Source: Actinomycetes bacterium (GTDB lineage: Bacteria > Actinomycetota > Acidimicrobiia > Acidimicrobiales > Palsa-688). Taken from it: a stretch of 64,000 nucleotides of DNA. Location of the stretch: positions 1 to 64,000 of the forward strand of contig JAJYMB010000059.1 of the NCBI GenBank assembly GCA_021787365.1, written 5' to 3'. The position numbers and the translations under genes were made by a program. The notes under the pieces are model-generated. The model saw only the letters and a program-made list of their open reading frames with translations, was not told the DNA's origin and did no database searches. Positions 45,206-57,209 of this stretch are shown one piece after another (the stretch's first letter is position 1; every line of letters starts with the position of its first letter).

Positions 45206-46210
45206 TCAGCCACTGCTCACGAGGGCCCGCAGCGACTCCCGCACGCTGCCGGTGGTGGCGAGCACGGCGCTCGGCTCGTAGCCGCAGTGGGCCATGCAAT
45301 TGCGGCACCGGGGGTCTCGGCCCCGACCGTACTTGGACCAGTCAGTGGTCTCGATCAGCTCCTTGTACGTCTCGGTGTAGCCGTCTGCCAAGAGGTAGCA
45401 GGGCCGCTGCCAGCCGAACACGCTGTAGGAGGGGATGCCCCAGGGCGTGCACTCGAACTCGACCTTGCCCTCCAAGAAGTCGAGGAAGAGCGGGCTGTGG
45501 TTGAAACGCCAATGCTTGCGCTTGCCAGCGAAGGCTTCTTGGAACACCTTCCGGGACTGGTCGACCGCGAGGAAGTGGACCTGGTCGGGCGCCTTCTCGT
45601 AGGCGTAGCCGGGGGACAGCATCATCTTGTCCACCCCGAGCTCGTCGTTCAGGAAGTCGAGCACCTCGCGTATGGTCTTCGGCGAGTCTGTGTTGAAAAA
45701 CGTGGTGTTCGTCATCACCCGGAAACCCCTCGCCTTTGCTTCCTTTATGGCGGCCACCGCCTTGTCGAACACGCCTTCGCGAGAAACCGAGGAGTCGTGG
45801 CGTTCGCGCAGGCCGTCTATGTGGACCACCCAGGCAAAGGCCGGGTGTGGTTGGAAGCGGTCGAGCTTGCGCTGGAGCAGGATGGCGTTGGTGCAGAGGT
45901 AGACAAAGCGCTTGCGGTCTAGGAGCGCTTCGGTCATCTTTTCGATCTCGGGGTGCAGGAGCGGCTCACCGCCGGCGATCGAGACCATGGGGGCGCCGCT
46001 CTCCTCGATGGCCGCCACCGCCTGGTCGACCGAGAGCCGCTTTCTCAAAATCTCGGTGGGGTACTGGATCTTGCCACAGCCGTTGCATTCCAGGTTGCAG
46101 GCAAAGAGAGGTTCGAGCTCGACTATCAAGGGGAACTTGTCCCGCTTGGCCAGCTTTTGGCGGGCAATGTAAGTGCCTACCCGCATACTCTGGCGCAGAT
46201 CTACGCCCAT
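45206..46210 (-). CDS. hpnH: Adenosyl-hopene transferase HpnH (radical SAM)
   Basis: HpnH joins a 5'-deoxyadenosyl radical to diploptene to form adenosylhopane, the first step of side-chain extension. The 334-residue protein carries the radical SAM cluster motif CNLECNGC (Cys38, Cys42, Cys45), the SAM-binding SIAGGEPLLHPEI, VHIDGLRERHD, and a C-terminal Cys-rich end (CRNCMAHCGYEPSAV) characteristic of the family. It starts one base after the hpnG-ispH stop and is followed by the SDR. Confidence 0.93.
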   Translation of the reverse strand: MGVDLRQSMRVGTYIARQKLAKRDKFPLIVELEPLFACNLECNGCGKIQYPTEILRKRLSVDQAVAAIEESGAPMVSIAGGEPLLHPEIEKMTEALLDRKRFVYLCTNAILLQRKLDRFQPHPAFAWVVHIDGLRERHDSSVSREGVFDKAVAAIKEAKARGFRVMTNTTFFNTDSPKTIREVLDFLNDELGVDKMMLSPGYAYEKAPDQVHFLAVDQSRKVFQEAFAGKRKHWRFNHSPLFLDFLEGKVEFECTPWGIPSYSVFGWQRPCYLLADGYTETYKELIETTDWSKYGRGRDPRCRNCMAHCGYEPSAVLATTGSVRESLRALVSSG

Positions 46211-46211
46211 G

Positions 46212-47747
46212 TCATCGTACCTCCAATGGTAGGGGGAAATTTACGTGCTCGTTGGCGCCCACGCGCGCGCTGACCTCTGTTGGGCCGAGCCCCGACAAGC
46301 ACGCCACGAGTTCCGAGACGAGCTGGTCGGGGGCGCTCGCGCCGGCCGTGATGCCGATGCGCCTTTTGCCCGCGAGCCAGGTCAAGCGGACTTCGGAACT
46401 GTCCTCCACCAGGTGGGCATCAGTCCCGCAGCGCCTCGCGACCTCGGCGAGGCGGTTGGAGTTGGAGGAGTTGGCCGAGCCGACCACGATCACGAGGTCG
46501 CAATCCGGGGCGAGGGCGCGCACCGCTTCCTGGCGGTTTTGGCTCGCGTAGCAGATATCCGACGCGGACGGCTTGGCGAGGTCGGTAAAGCCCCCCTCCA
46601 GGGCGTCGAGGACGACTTTCACCTCGTCTGTGGCGAGGGTCGTCTGGGTGACGACCGCGGTCGGTGCGGAGCGGTCGAGTTCGAGCGCCTCGACGTCTGC
46701 CGGCGTGCTCACGAGCACCGACCCCGGGACCGAGCCGAGCGTGCCCTCTACTTCGTCGTGGCCGGCGTGGCCGACCAGCACGACCTGGCGACCTGCGGAG
46801 GCGAAACGGCGGGCCTCCGTGTGGACTTTGCTCACCAGGGGGCACGTGGCGTCGATGACGGACATGGCGCGTCGCTCTGCTTCCTCGCGCACGGCCGTGC
46901 CCACCCCGTGGGCGGAGAAGACCACCGTCGCACCGTCGGGCACTTCGCTCAGTTCCTCGACGAATACTGCGCCCGCGGCCTCGAGGGCCGAGACCACGTG
47001 GGAATTGTGCACGATCTGGCGGCGTACGTAGACGGGCGCACCGTAACGCTCGATCGCCCGCTCGACCGTGTCGATCGCCCGCTCCACGCCAGCGCAGAAC
47101 GAACGCGGTTCCGCCAAGAGGACTTCTCGCGCCCCGGATGCCGCAGCCCAGCAGGCGAGGGTGGGCCGTGAGGCACGTAGGGTGCGGAGCGCCTTCCAAA
47201 TGCCGGCGAGGCCAGCGGGAGAGAACAGTTCGACCTCGGCCGTGTCGGATATGGCCCGCAGGACGGCAAAGGGCCGCTTTTTACCCATGATCTCGGGGGC
47301 CACCACCGTGGACTCCATGTCGACCGCGAGGGCGCCGAGCCCGGCCAGCCGGCTACGTTCTCTCCCGGTGACGATGTGGTCGGCGCTGGCCACCGTCCCT
47401 GTGCGCGCCGGGAGGCCGGCCCGGCGCAGTTCGCCGGCCAGCAGCGGCGCCGAAGCGAGGAGGGCCACCTCCTTGCCTTCCGCGTCGACCAGGCGGTCCG
47501 CCACGACGATGTCCCCAGGACTGAGCCCGGGGGCGAGGCCACCGCCCAAGCCCGCCACTACGACTGCGTCGGCCTGCCCGGCTTCCCCCGCCAGGCGCCG
47601 GGCCGAGGCGCCGGCTTTGGCCAGGCCCATCCCGAGCCGGCGGACCACCAATGTGGCCGCGCCCACCTGCGCACGCGTGGGGCCGAGGGCCAGAGCCTCG
47701 ATCCCGAGGGGCGCGAGCACGAGCAGGCGGGGGCGTCCCTCACTCAT
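46212..47747 (-). CDS. Fusion of HpnG nucleosidase/phosphorylase and IspH reductase
   Basis: This single 511-residue frame joins two enzymes. Residues 1-200 are a nucleoside phosphorylase of the HpnG type (ADAVVVAGLGGGLAPGLSPGDIVV, ADHIV, and VDMESTVVA with Asp143/Glu145), which removes adenine from adenosylhopane. Residues about 206-505 are a complete IspH, the 4Fe-4S enzyme making IPP and DMAPP in the MEP pathway. Its cluster cysteines are Cys218 (RSFCAGVERA), Cys302 (DATCPLV) and Cys399 (SDICYASQNRQ), with HGVG and TQTTLA motifs also present. No stop or frameshift separates them. The ATG overlaps the shc stop by 8 bases. An isoprenoid-supply enzyme fused to a hopanoid side-chain enzyme is unusual. 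Confidence 0.92.
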   Translation of the reverse strand: MSEGRPRLLVLAPLGIEALALGPTRAQVGAATLVVRRLGMGLAKAGASARRLAGEAGQADAVVVAGLGGGLAPGLSPGDIVVADRLVDAEGKEVALLASAPLLAGELRRAGLPARTGTVASADHIVTGRERSRLAGLGALAVDMESTVVAPEIMGKKRPFAVLRAISDTAEVELFSPAGLAGIWKALRTLRASRPTLACWAAASGAREVLLAEPRSFCAGVERAIDTVERAIERYGAPVYVRRQIVHNSHVVSALEAAGAVFVEELSEVPDGATVVFSAHGVGTAVREEAERRAMSVIDATCPLVSKVHTEARRFASAGRQVVLVGHAGHDEVEGTLGSVPGSVLVSTPADVEALELDRSAPTAVVTQTTLATDEVKVVLDALEGGFTDLAKPSASDICYASQNRQEAVRALAPDCDLVIVVGSANSSNSNRLAEVARRCGTDAHLVEDSSEVRLTWLAGKRRIGITAGASAPDQLVSELVACLSGLGPTEVSARVGANEHVNFPLPLEVR

Positions 47748-49671
47748 GGCGTCGGCCAGTCCGCTTTAGGTAGCGGCCCAGGGCAGAGAGCGGGAACACG
47801 TGGCGGTAGAGGTGGTAGTTGAGCGAGAAGTCCCACGGGAACCCCGTGCCCGTGAACCACGGCTCGTCCCAGGTGCCCTCGGCGTTTTGGTTGGCGACGA
47901 GCCACTCCACCCCCCGCCCGGTGGCTCGGTGGCTTTCCTCGCCTGCGGCCAGCAGGGCGAGGAGCGCCCACGCCGTCTGAGACGCGGTCGAAGTACCATG
48001 CCCCCGCCAGCTCGGCTCGACGTACGAACGCAGGTCCTCGCCCCAGCCGCCGTCGTCGTTTTGGTGGTCCACGAGCCAGCGGACGGCTCGCGCGACGCGC
48101 GGGTCGCTCGCGGGGACGCCGGCGGCGACCAGCGCGGGCACGACCGCTCCCGTCCCGTACACGTAGTTGACCCCCCAGCGGCCCCAGTACGAACCGTCCG
48201 GCTGCTGCTTGGCTGAGAGCCATTCGACGCCCCGGCGGAGCGCCGCCTCGTGGCGGCCATGCCCCGTCTCGCCGCAGAACATCTCGACCACGTGCGCGGT
48301 CACGTCCTCGCTCGGCGGGTCCGTGACGGCGCCGAAGTCGAAGAAGGGAAGCTGGTTGGGGAGCGTGGCGTCGTTGTCCGCGTCGAAGGCACCCCAGCCT
48401 CCGTCGCGCGACTGCATGCCGGCGACCCACGCGAGGGCCCGTTGGCAGGCGGCTTCGCTGGCTTCGGTCGGCGCAGCCCGCCGGAGCGCCAGCACGACTT
48501 CGGCCGTGTCGTCGATGTCTGGGTAATGGACGTTACAAAACTCGAACGCCCAGCCGCCCGGGGCCAGCCCGGGCCTCTGCACTGCCCAGTCGCCGCTAAC
48601 GGTCACCTCGTTTTCCAAAAGCCAGTCCCGGGCTGACGAGATCGCGGGGTCGTCTGGCGCCACCCCGGCGTCGGCGAGCGCTATCACCGCCAGTGCGGTG
48701 TCCCATACCGGGGACTGGCAGGCCTCGATGCGCCGGCCCACCTCGTCTTGCAAGGTGAAGGCGGAAAGGCCGGACAACGCTTTCGCGACGACAGGGTGGT
48801 CCATCGGGTAGCCCTGGAGCACCAGGGCGATCGTCGAGTAGACCATCGGCGGCTGGATGCCGCCCCAGGAGCCGTCGGCTTCCTGGCGGGCGACGACCCA
48901 GCGCTCTGCCTCGTGCAACGCGGGTGGGCGGAGCCACCTCTTCGGCCAGGAACGCTCCGGCAGGTGCTCGTAAAAGTGGAGCGCCTTGTCCAGGAGGGTA
49001 AAGGAGCGGCCGGCCAGGCGGGCAGGCTTCTGGCGAGGCGGGCGGCCGGAGAACAGCTCGTCCACCCGGAACGGCAGTGGCCGGACGGGCCGGTGGGAAG
49101 AAATGACCGAGAGGGCGACGATCGTCTGGCGCGCCCAGCAGGCGAAGGAATAGATGGAAAGTGGCCACCTGGCTGGCAGGTAGACGAGCTCTGGGGGGAT
49201 CACGGGGAGCTGGTCCCAGTCCCAGCACCCGACCATGGCCAGCCATATGCGGGTAAAGACGCGGGAAGCCTCGATGCCCCCGTGCTCTCGCGCCCACCCC
49301 GCCGCCTTGGCCATGTGCTCAGCCTGAGGGGGGTCGCCGGCGAGGCGGAGGGTGACGTAGGCCTCGACGGTGGCGGAAAGCTCGCCGGGGCCTTGGTAAA
49401 ACGTGGCCCAGGCCCCGTCGGGGCGCTGCTGCGAGCGTACCCGGGAGGCCGCAGCCCGGAGAGTGGGCTGGTCGAGGATCCCGAGGAAATGGCGCAGCAG
49501 CACGTCTTCTGCGTCCATCGTCACGTTGGTCTCGAGCTCGCCCTTCCAGAAGCCCTCGGGCGCCTGGGCCCGCTTCAGCCAACGGGCTGCCCGTTCGGTG
49601 GCGAGGACGGCCGAAGCCTGCGTGCTCGAAGAAGTGTCGCGGTGGAGCTCGAGCAGCGGAGCCACTTTCAC
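47740..49671 (-). CDS. shc: Squalene-hopene cyclase
   Basis: Shc cyclises squalene to hopene/hopanol at the membrane. The GTG at 49671 overlaps the stop of the prenyl synthase gene (GTGA); the frame upstream is shadow. The 643-residue product has the catalytic acid motif DIDDTA (Asp385, Asp387, Asp388), several QW repeats (QQRPDGAWATFYQGPGEL, QEADGSWGG, QSRDGGWGAFDADND, QQPDGSYWGRWG, QNDDGGWGED) and FEFCNVHYPD. Length and motifs match bacterial cyclases. The C-terminus continues into hpnG-ispH by overlap. Confidence 0.96.
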   Translation of the reverse strand: MKVAPLLELHRDTSSSTQASAVLATERAARWLKRAQAPEGFWKGELETNVTMDAEDVLLRHFLGILDQPTLRAAASRVRSQQRPDGAWATFYQGPGELSATVEAYVTLRLAGDPPQAEHMAKAAGWAREHGGIEASRVFTRIWLAMVGCWDWDQLPVIPPELVYLPARWPLSIYSFACWARQTIVALSVISSHRPVRPLPFRVDELFSGRPPRQKPARLAGRSFTLLDKALHFYEHLPERSWPKRWLRPPALHEAERWVVARQEADGSWGGIQPPMVYSTIALVLQGYPMDHPVVAKALSGLSAFTLQDEVGRRIEACQSPVWDTALAVIALADAGVAPDDPAISSARDWLLENEVTVSGDWAVQRPGLAPGGWAFEFCNVHYPDIDDTAEVVLALRRAAPTEASEAACQRALAWVAGMQSRDGGWGAFDADNDATLPNQLPFFDFGAVTDPPSEDVTAHVVEMFCGETGHGRHEAALRRGVEWLSAKQQPDGSYWGRWGVNYVYGTGAVVPALVAAGVPASDPRVARAVRWLVDHQNDDGGWGEDLRSYVEPSWRGHGTSTASQTAWALLALLAAGEESHRATGRGVEWLVANQNAEGTWDEPWFTGTGFPWDFSLNYHLYRHVFPLSALGRYLKRTGRRHE

Positions 49672-50816
49672 GATTCGCGTTCCACGACATAGACGGCAAG
49701 GTCCGCCAGGGCGCGGCGGGGCAGGGCGGAGAGGCGAGCGCGCTCGAGCGAGCCGAGAGCCGCGTCGAGGTGGGCCTTGGCCCGGGCTGCGGTCCACTCC
49801 CGGCCGCCGCAGCGCTCGACGAGAGAGGCGGCGCGGGCGACCTCGTCCGCGGAGAGCGGCCGGAGTTGGGCCGGTGCCCATTCGGGCGTCGCCAGCTCGA
49901 TGCCCGGCATGCCGGCTTTGCTCACGACGTGGCCGTTGCTCTTCGAGCCGTCGCCCGCCACGGCCTCGCCGGCACTGCCCTTTACATCTTCCCCGAACAA
50001 GAGGGCGTCGAGCTCACGCGACTCGTCGTCGCCGGCGGCCAGGGCGGCCACGATCGGCATGGACTTCTTGCGCTGGCGGATGTCGTTGCCGGCCGGCTTC
50101 CCGGTCGTCGCAGGGTCGCCCCAGATGCCGAGCAAGTCGTCGACGGCTTGGAAGGCGACGCCGAGGTGGCGCCCGAAGCCCTCCAGCGCGCGGGCTGTGG
50201 CCGGCGGGGCGCCGGCCAGTACGGCGCCGATCGAGGCCGCGCACCCGAGGAGGGCACCGGTCTTCGCCGTGGACATGCCCATGCACTCTTCGACGCTCAC
50301 GTTGCGGCGTTGTTCGAAGGCGAGGTCGTCGGCTTGGCCGGCGATCATCTCGGCGGTCGCTCTCGAAAGGGCCGAGGCTGCTGCCGGAGCCTCTGGGGAC
50401 CCGGTCCCGAGCAGGACCTGTACGGACAGGGTGGCCAGGGCGTCGCCCGCCAGCAGGGCGAGCGAGGGGCCCCACAGCGCCCACACGGTCGGGCGGTGGC
50501 GACGTTCGAGGTCACCGTCCATCAAGTCGTCGTGCAGGAGCGAGAAGTTGTGGACAAGTTCGACGGCGACCGCGCCGGGCAATCCGACCTCCGCGTCCGC
50601 CCACGTGGCTTCCGCCGAGAGGATGGCGAGGGCGGCGCGGACGAACTTGCCGCCGCGCTGATGCCTCGGCTGGCCGTCCGCCTCCGTCCAGCCGATGTGG
50701 TAGCTGGCCGCCCGCTGGATGCTGGCTGGTAGTCGCTCGAGCGCTTCGGCGAGGCGCGGCTCTGTCATTTCGCGCGCACGCTTCAGCACGTCGCCTACCG
50801 CGATAGTGGGGGTCAC
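49668..50816 (-). CDS. Polyprenyl diphosphate synthase (farnesyl diphosphate synthase-like)
   Basis: This 382-residue enzyme elongates IPP and allylic diphosphates, most probably to farnesyl diphosphate for squalene. The first Asp-rich motif is HDDLMDGD and the second DDLLGIWGD; GGKFVRAALAIL is the usual KxxR region. Between about residues 250 and 300 there is a non-conserved insertion (GEDVKGSAGEAVAGDGSKSNG). The GTG at 50816 overlaps the hpnE stop, and its own stop overlaps the shc start. Chain length cannot be fixed by eye, but the operon calls for C15. Confidence 0.9.
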   Translation of the reverse strand: MTPTIAVGDVLKRAREMTEPRLAEALERLPASIQRAASYHIGWTEADGQPRHQRGGKFVRAALAILSAEATWADAEVGLPGAVAVELVHNFSLLHDDLMDGDLERRHRPTVWALWGPSLALLAGDALATLSVQVLLGTGSPEAPAAASALSRATAEMIAGQADDLAFEQRRNVSVEECMGMSTAKTGALLGCAASIGAVLAGAPPATARALEGFGRHLGVAFQAVDDLLGIWGDPATTGKPAGNDIRQRKKSMPIVAALAAGDDESRELDALLFGEDVKGSAGEAVAGDGSKSNGHVVSKAGMPGIELATPEWAPAQLRPLSADEVARAASLVERCGGREWTAARAKAHLDAALGSLERARLSALPRRALADLAVYVVERES

Positions 50817-52285
50817 GTAGTCTCCCGTGGTTGTTGTAGCTCCGATAGGTCTTGCAATCTTGCCGGACCGACGACCTTGGGGAGGTGATTGCGCTGGCCG
50901 GCGCCCACCAAGGCGGCGCGCGCGGCAGCCAGGCCGCTCCTTACGGCGCCTTCCATGGTCGGGGGCCACCCAGTAGACGTCCACGCTCCCGCCAGGGTCA
51001 GGCCGGGGAGGCGGGTGCGCGGTGGCGCCCGGTGGGCCGCCGAGCCCGGCGCTGCCCGGAAGGTCGCATTTTGCTCCCTGCTCACGAACGTCCCGAGCAC
51101 CTTTGCCTGCTTGGCCCGGGGGAAGAGCTCGCCGAGAGCCACCACCATCTGGCGCTCCAGCTCCTCCGAGCTCGTGCCGGCGTGGCTGTCGGCGGCCGAG
51201 ACCGACACCGCCAGGTACTGGCCCCGCGGCGCACCCGAAGGACCCGTCCGGTCGAACACCCACTGGGCCGGCGTGCCGAGCCCGGCCACGAAGGGCAGGT
51301 TCGTCACCGGGCGGTCGTAATGGACGTGGACGTTTACGATGGGGGAGCTACCCAGGTGCGCCGGTCGTACGTCCTCGGGCAGGGCTCCCGCCGGCAGCAC
51401 TTGCTCTACCAGGTGATGGGGTAGCGCCACGACAACGGCGTCGGCCTGGAGCTCGCCGCCGGCGATCACCCTGAAGCCGCCTTCGGGGAGCTTCTCGACC
51501 CCCCGCACGGCCGTGCCGAGGTGCAGGCTGGCCCCGGCCTTGCGCAGCGCGGAGGCGCCCCTTTCGCCGTGCAGCACCCCGAGGGGGAGCCGGGCCCAGC
51601 CGATGTCGGCCGCCTTGGCCTCGCTCAGGAGGCCCGTCTGGAACACTTTGGCCGCCATCGCCAGCGAGGCCTCTCGGGCGGGAAGGTTGACCGTGGGCAG
51701 GCAGATCAGGTCCCAGAGCGCTTCTATGGCTTGCGGGCCCTGGAAGTGCCTCTGCAGCCAGTGCTCGAAGTTCTCCTGGTCGAGGGCGGGGTCTTCCAGG
51801 TCCAGCCGGGCGAGGGCGCCGGCGGCGAGGCCGATGCGGGCACGCTGCGCCGCGGGGACGTGGCGGTAGCGCAGGAGGCTGCTGGCGAGGTGAAGGGGGG
51901 CGGGGCCAGGACCGCGCCGGAGCACCGCGCGCTCGGGCGGTCGTCCAGGGCGCGCCCGGAGCACCGTTAGGTCCAAGCGTGGTTGCAAGAAGACGTCGCC
52001 CGCCGACCCGATGCGGTCGAGGAAGTCGAGGTAGGCGGTGCAGCAGCGGAGGAAGACGTGCTGGCCGTTGTCCATGACGAGCCCGTCGTGGGAGAACGAC
52101 CAGGTGAGCCCGCCGAGCCTGCCGCGCTTTTCGAGCAGCGTCACCTTGGCGCCGGCGTCCGCGCAGGCGAGCGCGGCGGCCATGCCGGCGAGGCCGCCGC
52201 CTATGACGGCGACGTGGGGGGCCGCGCTGGTCGCGCCCGCTACGCTCGCCGGCCGGCGAGCGCTCTCAGGGCTCCCGAGGGTCAT
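50813..52285 (-). CDS. hpnE: Hydroxysqualene dehydroxylase HpnE
   Basis: HpnE is the FAD enzyme that reduces hydroxysqualene to squalene, the last step of the HpnCDE route. The 490-residue protein starts with the Rossmann motif VAVIGGGLAGMAAALACADAGAKVTLLEKRGRLGG and has GQHVFLRCCTAYLDFL, a mid-region typical of phytoene desaturase relatives, and the C-terminal FAD contact LAGAWTSTGWPPTMEGAVRSG. The ATG at 52285 begins the conserved part; the long upstream frame overlaps hpnD. It lies 31 bases after hpnD and overlaps the prenyl synthase gene by four bases. Confidence 0.92.
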   Translation of the reverse strand: MTLGSPESARRPASVAGATSAAPHVAVIGGGLAGMAAALACADAGAKVTLLEKRGRLGGLTWSFSHDGLVMDNGQHVFLRCCTAYLDFLDRIGSAGDVFLQPRLDLTVLRARPGRPPERAVLRRGPGPAPLHLASSLLRYRHVPAAQRARIGLAAGALARLDLEDPALDQENFEHWLQRHFQGPQAIEALWDLICLPTVNLPAREASLAMAAKVFQTGLLSEAKAADIGWARLPLGVLHGERGASALRKAGASLHLGTAVRGVEKLPEGGFRVIAGGELQADAVVVALPHHLVEQVLPAGALPEDVRPAHLGSSPIVNVHVHYDRPVTNLPFVAGLGTPAQWVFDRTGPSGAPRGQYLAVSVSAADSHAGTSSEELERQMVVALGELFPRAKQAKVLGTFVSREQNATFRAAPGSAAHRAPPRTRLPGLTLAGAWTSTGWPPTMEGAVRSGLAAARAALVGAGQRNHLPKVVGPARLQDLSELQQPRETT

Positions 52286-52316: not shown

Positions 52317-53207
52317 TCACGGGGCCCCTCGGAGCAACGCTCGGGCGGTGACCGCCACTTTCTGGCTCGGGGCGAGCGAGAGGCGCCCTCGGAGGACGCT
52401 GGCAGGTGAGGTCCTGATCTGGTCGAGGAGATGCCGGTAGATGCCCGCCATGGCCGCCGTGCAGGCCCTACTGCGCCGGTCCAAGAGCTCGAGCAGGGGC
52501 AGGCCCCGCTCGTACCATTCGGCCGCCCGGCCGGTTTCGTAGCAAACCAGCGCGACAAGGTCCTCGTCGTCACCTTTCAGGCCCGGCCCGATGCCGAAGC
52601 GTGCGAGGTCGCACTCGGGCAGGTACACCCGCCCGTAGACGTCGCGGTCCTCGACGAGGTCACGCAGGATGTTGGTGAGCTGCAGGGCGACACCCAGGGC
52701 ATCTGCCAGGGCCTCGGCGCGCTCCCCACCCTGGCTGCCGAAGATGGCGAGCGAGAGCCTCCCGATCGTCCCCGCCACCCGCCGGCAGTACTCGACCAGC
52801 TCGTCGAAGGTGGCGTAACGCTTGCCGGAAAGGTCCCACTCACACCCTTGCACGAGCTCTTCCAGGGCGTTGATCGGCAGTGGGTAGCGCCGGGCGACGT
52901 CTGCCAGGGCCATCAGGACGGGGTCGCCCGGAGGGGGCGCCGGCCCCCCCGCCGCGGCTTTGGTGAGCAAGCCGAGCGAGGTGCGCACCGACGCGAGCGC
53001 CTGAGCCGATGTCTCGCTGCCGCCCTGCTTTCCACCGCTCGCGTCGTCGCCGATGTCGTCGATCCGGCGGGCCATCGCATAAAGGGCGCACATGGCCGCC
53101 CGTTTGCTCGGCGGCAGCAGGCGGATGCCGTAGTAGAAGTTGCGGGCGCGCGAGCGCGTGATCCGCTCGCAGTGCTTGTAGGCGAGGGCGACAGCGGCGT
53201 CGTTCAC
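52317..53207 (-). CDS. hpnD: Presqualene diphosphate synthase HpnD
   Basis: HpnD condenses two farnesyl diphosphates to presqualene diphosphate. The GTG at 53207 overlaps the hpnC stop as GTGA. The 296-residue product has FYYGIRLLPPSKRAAMCALYA, the first aspartate motif RRIDDIGDD, and the second LTNILRDLVEDRDVYGRVYLP. A Lys/Gly/Ser-rich insert follows the first motif (ASGGKQGGSETS). It resembles phytoene/squalene synthases, and the neighbours hpnC and hpnE settle the hopanoid assignment. Confidence 0.93.
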   Translation of the reverse strand: MNDAAVALAYKHCERITRSRARNFYYGIRLLPPSKRAAMCALYAMARRIDDIGDDASGGKQGGSETSAQALASVRTSLGLLTKAAAGGPAPPPGDPVLMALADVARRYPLPINALEELVQGCEWDLSGKRYATFDELVEYCRRVAGTIGRLSLAIFGSQGGERAEALADALGVALQLTNILRDLVEDRDVYGRVYLPECDLARFGIGPGLKGDDEDLVALVCYETGRAAEWYERGLPLLELLDRRSRACTAAMAGIYRHLLDQIRTSPASVLRGRLSLAPSQKVAVTARALLRGAP

Positions 53208-54175
53208 GCTTGGGCCCCCAACGTGTTTGCCGTGGCATCGGCCGCCTCCGGGACGCCCCCGCCGGCGTAGGCGCCAGCGAGCAGCCTCGCCAGCTGCCAG
53301 GCGAATCGGCGCGGCCTCGGGCGGGCCCACTCCGCGTAGATGTCGAAGCCCGCCGCGGCCAGGGCGTCGAGGGCGGCGTGGCCCCCGGCCACGAAGCCGG
53401 CGACTGCCACCCTCAGCCGGCCCCGTAGGCTGACCACTAACGGCGACCCCTCTTCGAGCATGCGCCTGGCGCGGGCGACCTCGAAGGCCATCAGGGCAGC
53501 GCGGCGCTCTCGCGCCCGTGCTCGTTCGCTGCCTCGGGAAGGGCTCCCGTAGTAGCCGGCTGGGGGCGGCAACAGGTCGTCCGCTCTGACCTCGAAGCGG
53601 CGGAGGTCCTCTTGGGGCAGGTAGACGCGGCCCACGACGGCGTCCTCGGCTACGTCCTGCCAATGCTCGACGAGTTGCAGGGCGGTGCAGATCTTGTCCG
53701 ACCACCCCACCCGTTGGGGCGTGGAGGCGCCGAACACGCCGAGCACGAGCCGCCCGACCGGGTTGGCCGAGAGCTGGCAGTAGCCGACCAAGTCGGCGAA
53801 AGTCTCGTAGCGGTTGACACGCTGGTCTTGGCGGTTGGCCTCGACAAGGTCGAAGAGCGGTTGGACCGGCAGGTCGCGCCGGCGGACCATGCCCGCCACC
53901 CGCGCGACCAGGGCGTGCAGGTCGCCGCCCTCCGGGCCGGCCAGCGCGGAGCGAAGTTGGCGCTCCACCTCGTCGAGGGCGGCGAGGCGGTCGCCGGCGT
54001 AGTTGTCGCCCAGTTCGTCAACGAGGCGCGCCCAGCCGTAGACCGCCATCAGGTCGGCCCGCAGAGGCCGAGGGAGCAGGCGCGAGGCAACAGGGAAGTT
54101 TTCGGTGGTCGCTCTCCCGATTACGAGGTAATCGGGGGGCAGTTCGGGAGGAGCAGGTGCAACCTCGCTGACCAC
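53204..54175 (-). CDS. hpnC: Hydroxysqualene synthase HpnC, first gene of the hopanoid operon
   Basis: HpnC converts presqualene diphosphate to hydroxysqualene. The 323-residue protein is a trans-isoprenyl diphosphate synthase-like member with ENFPVASRLLPRPLRADLMAVYGWARLVDELGD and LQLVEHWQDVAEDAVVGRVYLP, in which the second aspartate motif is the HpnC variant. The GTG start lies 6 bases after a TAAGAT -10 box with no Shine-Dalgarno. It heads eight tightly packed genes. Confidence 0.92.
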   Translation of the reverse strand: MVSEVAPAPPELPPDYLVIGRATTENFPVASRLLPRPLRADLMAVYGWARLVDELGDNYAGDRLAALDEVERQLRSALAGPEGGDLHALVARVAGMVRRRDLPVQPLFDLVEANRQDQRVNRYETFADLVGYCQLSANPVGRLVLGVFGASTPQRVGWSDKICTALQLVEHWQDVAEDAVVGRVYLPQEDLRRFEVRADDLLPPPAGYYGSPSRGSERARARERRAALMAFEVARARRMLEEGSPLVVSLRGRLRVAVAGFVAGGHAALDALAAAGFDIYAEWARPRPRRFAWQLARLLAGAYAGGGVPEAADATANTLGAQA

Positions 54176-54212
54176 GCGGTCATCTTAGACACCATGAGGC
54201 ACGGTGGGGCAA
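54176..54212 (-). promoter_or_regulatory. Candidate promoter of the hopanoid operon
   Basis: On the minus strand TTGCCC (54207-54212), 19 bases, TAAGAT (54182-54187), then 6 bases to the hpnC GTG. The -10 is good, the -35 and its spacing are weak. The preceding MerR-TetR gene may be the regulator. Confidence 0.55.
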
Positions 54213-54231
54213 CTATCGAGCGCTCCTGGTG

Positions 54232-55053
54232 CTAGCTGCCCGCTCGGACGAGGCGGCTCTCGGGTGCCCAGTCGGGCCCGACGGCCCACTGCAGCACGGT
54301 GGCGAAGGCTGCCTCTATCACTTGGAGGCCGGCCGGGATCGGGTTGCCCGAGAGGGGACGGCCGGCAGCCTCCGCGAGCGTGCGCAAGACACGCGCCGCG
54401 AGCACCTGGCTCGGCCCGTCGCCCCGTGCCGCGCGTGCGCCGAGCTCGAGCAGGATCGGCATGGCACGTGCGATCTGGCGCCCGAAGACCAGCGCGGTCT
54501 TCCCCGGGTCGCTCGCCAACCCCTCCGCCCCTCCGAGGTCGGACACGGCCTGGGCGAAGCTGTCCGCTGTTTCCTGGCAGAGGTTTTCGACCACGGCGGT
54601 GAACAGTGCTTCCTTGGAGGGGAAGTACCTGTACACGCTGCCCTTGGCGACGCCAGCGGCGGCTGCGATCTCGCTCACTGCGACCGAGGCGTAGCCCCGA
54701 GGCTCGGAGAACAACCGGAACGCCGCTTCTATGAGGCGCGCCTCGGGCCCCTCCGTACTCGCGAGAGGGAGGAGCGGCTGCTTGCCTTCGAGCAGGCCAG
54801 GGAGCACGGACTTGATCTGGCGAAGGGAAAGGCCCCGCTGTTCGCGCAGCTCCCGGATCAGGCGCAAGGCGCGGACGTGGACCTCCCGGTAGCTGAAGCG
54901 GCCCCGGCCTACCGGCTTGGGGCGGGGCAGGAGGCCGAGGCGCCGGTAATGGTGGACCGTGCTGGCCGGCACGCCCGAGAGCGCGACGACCCGCCCGAGG
55001 GTCATGCCCTCGGCCGAGCTTTCCCGTTCAAGCACTTCGGCGCTGCTCGTCAC
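54232..55053 (-). CDS. Chimeric regulator: MerR helix-turn-helix plus TetR domain
   Basis: The 273-residue protein joins two DNA-binding modules. Residues about 17-85 are a MerR winged helix (TLGRVVALSGVPASTVHHYRRLGLLPRPKPVGRGRFSYREVHV, RGLSLRQIKSVL). Residues about 103-150 are a TetR helix-turn-helix (RLIEAAFRLFSEPRGYASVAVSEIAAAAGVAKGSVYRYFPSKEALF), followed by a TetR-type ligand/dimer domain to the end. It sits immediately upstream of the hopanoid operon and 9 bases after the aldehyde dehydrogenase, all leftward. Control of one or both is likely but inferred. Confidence 0.85.
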   Translation of the reverse strand: MTSSAEVLERESSAEGMTLGRVVALSGVPASTVHHYRRLGLLPRPKPVGRGRFSYREVHVRALRLIRELREQRGLSLRQIKSVLPGLLEGKQPLLPLASTEGPEARLIEAAFRLFSEPRGYASVAVSEIAAAAGVAKGSVYRYFPSKEALFTAVVENLCQETADSFAQAVSDLGGAEGLASDPGKTALVFGRQIARAMPILLELGARAARGDGPSQVLAARVLRTLAEAAGRPLSGNPIPAGLQVIEAAFATVLQWAVGPDWAPESRLVRAGS

Positions 55054-56566: not shown

Positions 56567-56600
56567 GCAACCGGGCGAGGGTTGCCTGTGGTGGCACTAG
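56567..56600 (-). repeat. Dispersed intergenic repeat copy
   Basis: GCAACCGGGCGAGGG followed by TTGCCTGTGGTGGCACTAG matches the right-hand copy at 13588-13618, flanks included. It lies between the BldD-like and aldehyde dehydrogenase genes, read in the opposite sense to them. Confidence 0.7.
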
Positions 56601-57103
56601 TGGCGGATCCCCAGCTCCTCGATGCGGGTGCGCATGGAACCCTCGTCGCGCTCGAACACACGAGCGAGGGCGCGCACATCTTCGGACCTGATAGTTATGA
56701 GGCGCCCGTTGAAATCGCCTCGCTGGATTTGGATCTGCCCTATGTACTTCCTGATCACGTCGCGTTCGGGTGCCTCGAGGCGTTCTAGGCGGGAGAGGTC
56801 GATCGTTATCGACCCCGAGGCCGGCGCGGGCGCACGGCTTTCCGTCCCGTAGTCAGGATCGGGCGACACCTTGGGCAAGAGCTGGTCTACTGGCACCCCG
56901 TAGAGGTTGGCCAGGCGCTGGAGGCGCAGGACCGAGATGATCCGTTCCCCCCGTTCGTAGGCGCCGAGCACAGATGCCTTGAACTCCCGGTTCGACTGTT
57001 CTTCCACTGCCTGCAGGGACAGGCCCTGCTGGCGGCGGATGTTGCGCAACCTTTCGCCCACTTGGCGGGCGTAGGCCGGAGTCATCTCCTCGGCCATCGT
57101 CAT
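56597..57103 (-). CDS. BldD-like c-di-GMP-responsive transcriptional regulator
   Basis: This 168-residue protein matches BldD in layout. The N-terminal Cro-type helix-turn-helix (residues 10-75) reads YARQVGERLRNIRRQQGLSLQAVEEQS, then YERGERIISVLRLQRLANLYGVP. The C-terminal domain contains R128-G-D130-X8-R139-S-E-D142, exactly the RGD-X8-RxxD c-di-GMP signature of Streptomyces BldD. The ATG at 57103 follows GGAAG with 7-base spacing; a GTG at 57155-57157 gives a longer frame without support. A TACTCT -10 lies at 57160-57165, and TAC-N5-GTA (57179-57189) upstream could be an autoregulatory site. Confidence 0.88.
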   Translation of the reverse strand: MTMAEEMTPAYARQVGERLRNIRRQQGLSLQAVEEQSNREFKASVLGAYERGERIISVLRLQRLANLYGVPVDQLLPKVSPDPDYGTESRAPAPASGSITIDLSRLERLEAPERDVIRKYIGQIQIQRGDFNGRLITIRSEDVRALARVFERDEGSMRTRIEELGIRH

Positions 57104-57209
57104 CGTCGCACTTCCATCTGGTTGAAGCCCCTCACTGGGGCCGGGTTGGTACAACACTTAGAGTAGCCAAACTGCGGTTACGCAAAGTAGGGGGCCGGCC
57201 ATGTCGGCA

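Follow-up and report, generated by a model that had tools for sequence, protein, structure and literature searches.

A conserved MerR–TetR protein beside the hopanoid genes of Acidimicrobiales as a candidate local repressor

A regulator with one MerR and one TetR DNA-binding domain stands at the head of a hopanoid operon in the genome studied here, and sequence comparison suggests that it is a long-conserved switch beside hopanoid genes. We consider it probable that this protein acts as a dedicated local TetR-type repressor of the hopanoid operon, with the MerR heads adding outer DNA contacts. Several elements of this case are computed: the two domains and their conservation, the linkage to hpnC, the co-occurrence with HpnC, the palindrome that tracks the regulator, and the position of that palindrome relative to the -10 element. 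All coordinates refer to the window, i.e., the whole stretch of 64,000 nucleotides that was analysed.

Hopanoids are sterol-like membrane lipids and major molecular fossils. To our knowledge, little is known about how bacteria switch hopanoid synthesis on and off. Our searches of the open-access literature found nothing relevant on MerR-TetR fusions and no dedicated hopanoid regulator in actinobacteria.

Two DNA-binding domains in one protein

The regulator is encoded by a single open frame with a GTG start. The gene and its parts are as follows:

54232..55053, minus strand: MerR-TetR regulator gene, 273 aa (open reading frame, Pfam, structure model)
54799..55005, minus strand: MerR winged-helix domain, residues 17-85 (PF13411; CueR-like fold)
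54592..54735, minus strand: TetR_N DNA-binding domain, residues 107-154 (PF00440, E 1.5e-17)
54274..54591, minus strand: TetR C-terminal core, residues 155-260 (model helices; TetR structures align over 100-259)

The original prediction held that two unrelated helix-turn-helix modules share this 273-residue chain, and both Pfam models and the modelled fold bear this out. MerR_1 (PF13411) matches residues 17-85 with E 2.1e-17 and 63.4 bits (cut-off 21.6), and the TetR_N helix-turn-helix (PF00440) matches residues 107-154 at 63.5 bits, over its curated cut-off of 24. An AlphaFold model (pLDDT 86) shows both folds at high confidence. In VIA-align comparisons, residues 17-91 superpose on CueR (Z 12.1), including the winged helix of the MerR family, while residues 100-259 match the fold of TetR repressors, EthR2 among them (Z 12.7; TetR chains overall Z 12-14). 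The all-helical C-terminal core typical of TetR proteins is present in both the model and the structure alignment; by homology, residues 155-260 would be the dimerisation and ligand region. The TetR part also aligns with PDB 4ich (Saccharomonospora viridis, 311 aa), from about residue 94-102 onward. The long antiparallel coiled-coil helix through which MerR proteins dimerise is absent from the model, where a linker (residues 89-102) leads into TetR helix 1. The regulator was the only two-domain protein of this kind found in the window's genome.

Conservation and distribution of the regulator

Within this GTDB family, 28 of 32 genomes have a homologue of the regulator, a count that takes in the genome of the window. 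Both MerR_1 and TetR_N match all 27 aligned family members (26 intact homologues plus the window), the opposite of a family whose homologues all lack the MerR part. The invariant columns of this alignment include the MerR helix-turn-helix residues V28, P29, S31, H34, Y36, G40, and Y55. In one branch of the family the MerR part is shorter: it has no helix 4 and no linker, and almost nothing separates its winged helix from TetR helix 1.

Across the order, a two-domain homologue is present in 29 of 198 genomes, and all 29 are among the 40 genomes with HpnC (Fisher p 4e-26, for genomes related by ancestry and with no correction for kinship). The remaining 11 HpnC genomes, which have no regulator next to hpnC, were all searched with greater sensitivity, and no two-domain homologue was found anywhere in them. 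No homologue was found in viral contigs. Outside the order, the regulator lies upstream of hpnC in one family, f107. In family f60 (genome G090) a homologue lies away from hpn genes.

MerR-TetR proteins are also found in other actinobacterial families (L190-L214), with 1-6 paralogues each, and in Desulfoluna (L042), with the same domain order; the architecture is therefore widespread. These proteins form a separate branch of the tree with 100/100 support, and the tested actinobacterial genomes that carry them lack HpnC. The hopanoid-linked regulators group on the other side of this branch, together with three sequences for which no adjacency to hpn genes is shown, two of which (L040 and L041) carry the operator described below. 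We used the main split alone because automatic trimming was poor for several sequences (L153, L162, L164, L165, and L229).

Linkage to the hopanoid operon

Downstream of the regulator, on the same strand, the genes run in the order hpnC, hpnD, hpnE, polyprenyl synthase, shc, hpnG-ispH, and hpnH, which confirms the predicted place of the regulator at the head of a hopanoid operon:

53204..54175, minus strand: hpnC, squalene synthase (TIGR03464, 287 bits, over the cut-off of 250); GTG start inside the operator
52317..53160 (start approximate), minus strand: hpnD-like presqualene diphosphate synthase (TIGR03465 best match, 256.5 bits, just under the cut-off of 278.6)
50813..52220 (start approximate), minus strand: hpnE, hydroxysqualene dehydroxylase (TIGR03467, E 8.9e-119, over the cut-off)
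49668..about 50790 (widest 51263; start approximate), minus strand: polyprenyl diphosphate synthase (PF00348; NF041169)
47740..49881, minus strand: shc, squalene-hopene cyclase (TIGR01507, 730 bits, over the cut-off)
46212..47747, minus strand: HpnG-like domain and IspH in one frame (TIGR03468, 75.9 bits, below the cut-off, residues 31-174; ispH residues 207-511)
45206..46210, minus strand: hpnH, adenosyl-hopene transferase (TIGR03470, 519 bits, over the cut-off)

Two of these genes have features of their own. The polyprenyl synthase scores 384 bits against the model for family 2 encapsulin cargo polyprenyl transferases (NF041169), below the cut-off of 450. The 511-aa frame at 46212-47747 carries an HpnG-like phosphorylase region together with IspH, and is possibly a fusion of hopanoid and MEP-pathway steps.

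The regulator stop lies 56 nt from hpnC, and the regulator start lies about 10 nt from the stop of an aldehyde dehydrogenase gene. In nearly all resolved loci, from 12 GTDB families of the order and from f107, the regulator is upstream of hpnC on the same strand; across the 12 families, the distance is usually less than 0.5 kb. Where a gene intervenes, it is often dxs (TIGR00204 over the cut-off in L161, L164, and L232), which encodes the entry enzyme of isoprenoid synthesis. In f31-type loci the regulator is followed by dxs, and in f107 loci by a YjbQ-family gene. The dxs gene lies directly behind the operator in L161, L164, and L232, its start is also seen there in L163 and L040, and on contigs that extend far enough it precedes hpnC. 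The sequences of several families apparently place dxs under the hopanoid switch. One further locus (L149, genome G003) has the regulator and operator immediately before hpnH, on a 12-kb contig without hpnC, hpnD, or shc.

On its upstream side, the regulator has the aldehyde dehydrogenase gene next to it in 12 of 26 same-family loci and at no locus from another family, so this linkage is lineage-specific, and we rejected the suggestion of an aldehyde signal as a general trait. Further upstream, a BldD-like regulator gene (56597-57157, minus strand) is a conserved neighbour in most loci of the window's family.

A palindrome that tracks the regulator

When the sequences that separate the regulator from hpnC were compared across all loci, a palindrome of the form TGACY-N4-RGTCA (TGACC-N4-GGTCA or TGACT-N4-AGTCA) was found just 3' of the -10 element of the operon. 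In the window it is:

54169..54182, minus strand: operator core TGACCGCGTGGTCA (TGACC-N4-GGTCA), a conserved palindrome and, genome-wide, the only exact match that lies at a hopanoid promoter

All 48 resolved loci with the regulator have the palindrome at 9 or more of 10 positions, compared with 1 of the 11 hopanoid loci that lack the regulator (p 1.8e-10); this p-value, like the others, overstates independence because the loci share ancestry. Six of the 48 loci have the palindrome after the regulator rather than directly upstream of hpnC, so that regulator-bearing loci were searched at two places and controls at one. Three loci were not counted: L147, where the contig ends inside the site; L181, where hpnC is off the contig; and L234, where the homologue lies away from hpn genes. 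In most regulator-bearing loci the palindrome stands out from shuffled sequence (p ≤0.03), its GAC....GTC positions do not vary among the 25 representatives compared, and sites of this kind have a background density of 0.17 per kb in these loci.

Loci that depart from the usual arrangement are informative. Where the regulator and hpnC are apart (L170, L176, L177, L178, and L152), the palindrome stays at hpnC; in other separated loci it lies at the start of the operon led by dxs or yjbQ. One locus without the regulator, L225 (G158), belongs to a genus in which sister genomes have both regulator and palindrome, and its aligned site reads GGAGCGCCGAGTCA versus GGACCATTGGGTCA; to judge from this alignment, it looks like an operator copy that decayed after loss of the regulator. 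Another, L222 (G119), has a perfect operator at hpnC, and no two-domain regulator was detected in its genome.

How far does the palindrome reach beyond the hopanoid operon? A scan of the window's genome with the exact pattern gave 7 sites, the same count as for a reversed control pattern, and a global regulon was rejected on this basis. Only the site at 54169-54182 is at a hopanoid promoter (5 others are inside called ORFs), which suggests a single local target. In front of the regulator gene itself, the palindrome occurs in 3 of 50 regions, a background level; autoregulation through this palindrome is therefore unlikely, and was also set aside. Together, the conserved linkage and conserved operator support regulation of hpnC by the regulator, as originally predicted, at the level of sequence.

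Promoter geometry and outer half-sites

The palindrome overlaps the promoter of its putative target, as sites of TetR/AcrR proteins do. The promoter elements and outer words in the window are:

54182..54187, minus strand: -10 element TAAGAT of the hpnC promoter (from sequence); overlaps the operator by one base
54207..54212, minus strand: -35-like element TTGCCC, with a 19-nt spacer (from sequence)
54187..54192, minus strand: putative left outer half-site GTGTCT, a weak match to GTRYAA
54157..54162, plus strand: right outer half-site GTGCAA (TTGCAC on the minus strand), kept in relatives of the window and here within the hpnC frame

In loci with a clear TTGACA box, the operator core begins 3-5 nt after the -10 element and therefore covers the expected transcription start. 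In the window's subclade the -10 element is shifted by 4 nt and touches the operator. The palindrome in the window overlaps the hpnC start codon (GTG at 54175, inside the operator), and so lies mostly outside the interval 54176-54231 proposed earlier for footprinting. This leaves almost no leader, which is compatible with a leaderless hpnC message.

The 19-base spacing that was noted near hpnC is real in the window (TTGCCC-19-TAAGAT), and a 19-nt spacer is found in 5 of 9 loci of its subclade; besides the window, L167, L169, L170, and L172 have a similar arrangement. A clear TTGACA or TTGACG box always goes with a spacer of 17-18 nt, as seen in 13 further loci of this family and in 5 loci from four other families.

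Beyond the core, a GTRYAA-like word recurs 3-8 nt away on both sides across loci. A motif built from the right flanks of half the families scored well above shuffled sequence when applied to both the right and the left flanks of the held-out families, in each of six splits (0-3 of 200 shuffles reached its score), and L232 has a perfect palindrome of 44 bp. The outer half-sites are imperfect and variably spaced: when loci are tested one by one for a dyad in these flanks, most members of the window's family, the window among them, fall short of significance, whereas the pooled and held-out tests reach it. The left outer word also overlaps the -10 element, a region with its own sequence constraint. 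With moderate confidence, we regard the outer half-sites as probable targets of the MerR heads.

Proposed mechanism and alternatives

We propose that the regulator would dimerise through its TetR core, by homology with TetR proteins, and that the two TetR heads would bind TGACC-N4-GGTCA at or a few bases past the -10 element, over the transcription start, where the bound protein would block RNA polymerase. The two MerR heads, tethered to the TetR N-termini, would probably stretch out to the GTRYAA-like half-sites, one of which coincides with the -10 region, and would add affinity and specificity with no twisting of the promoter. Release from DNA would follow when a small molecule occupies the TetR core. 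To judge from the target genes, this putative inducer may be an isoprenoid or a hopanoid intermediate; a membrane-stress signal may also fill this role. Binding itself, repression rather than activation, dimerisation, and the role of the MerR heads are what we infer from the comparisons above. The full scheme, a two-headed repressor on a four-part operator (TetR inside, MerR on the outer GTRYAA words) conserved in the order as a dedicated switch for hopanoid genes, and in some families for dxs, is put forward tentatively, as a proposal nearly as likely to be right as wrong.

One alternative is a MerR-type activator, the idea of the original prediction: the regulator would bind the 19-bp spacer and switch on hpnC by untwisting its promoter, while the TetR part would serve as the sensor. 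The long spacer of the window and its four relatives fits this idea, as do the intact MerR helix-turn-helix and wing. However, untwisting needs a dyad in a long spacer (19-20 bp) and a coiled-coil dimer, and neither was found as a family trait. The conserved dyad lies 3' of the -10 element and not within the spacer, other clear promoters have spacers of 17-18 nt, the long spacer is confined to the window's subclade, and the coiled-coil helix is replaced by a short linker, with helix 4 lost in one branch. We therefore rejected untwisting as a general mechanism and regard this activator as very improbable. Activation through the palindrome itself is a separate matter, since position and linkage alone do not prove the sign of regulation, and some TetR-family proteins act as activators. 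Yet the site spans the region from the -10 element to the transcription start, where binding blocks polymerase, and this reading too is improbable.

The preferred reading, repression with help from the MerR heads, has its nearest competitor in a TetR-only repressor, which differs from it in the role of the MerR part only, as this would be vestigial or a protein-contact module. A TetR dimer fully accounts for the core palindrome, the MerR domain is shortened in one branch, and the outer half-sites are irregular in sequence and spacing. On the other hand, invariant MerR helix-turn-helix residues and a MerR_1 match in every family member are unexpected for a relic, and the outer half-sites reappear in held-out families; we judge the TetR-only version somewhat unlikely. 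Least credible is the idea that the palindrome belongs to another factor, with chance or operon hitch-hiking behind the linkage of the regulator to the hopanoid genes. The perfect operator of L222 speaks for it. Against it stand the near-absence of the palindrome from loci without the regulator, its degraded state in L225, and the fact that palindrome and regulator also travel together before dxs.

If the repressor reading is right, a conserved regulator with a defined candidate operator would make it possible to test directly which signals induce hopanoid production. The protein would also be a naturally occurring repressor that combines two unrelated DNA-binding domains, and the branch with the shortened second domain would make the contribution of each head measurable.

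Comparison with known regulators

The closest likeness is to local repressors of the TetR/AcrR family, such as EthR2, FasR, KstR, and QacR, with which the regulator shares the TetR_N fold, the core helices, a palindrome that overlaps the promoter, and a single adjacent target operon. Unlike these, it has an extra N-terminal MerR winged helix in every member, and its own promoter has no copy of the operator. With the MerR family (CueR, CadR, and PbrR691) it shares the winged helix that superposes on CueR, but it has no antiparallel coiled-coil helix, and its operator lies outside the promoter spacer.

Other proteins have comparable combinations. SCO5550 (PDB 2dg6) of Streptomyces coelicolor is described as a MerR protein with a different dimerisation domain (PMC5045206), and according to the title of a paper cited there, it is an activator of sco5551. 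Like the regulator, it joins a MerR winged helix to a dimerisation part that is not of the MerR type, and its sequence matches the MerR part of the window's regulator with E 5e-5; its described role is that of an activator, whereas we propose a repressor here. Mce3R (PDB 9b7y), a repressor linked to sterol metabolism, has a double TetR motif within a single chain and, by the title of the report, binds a non-palindromic sequence (PMC11667970). Both Mce3R and the regulator would thus place two DNA-binding modules in one TetR-type repressor, two TetR modules in Mce3R and a MerR plus a TetR module here.
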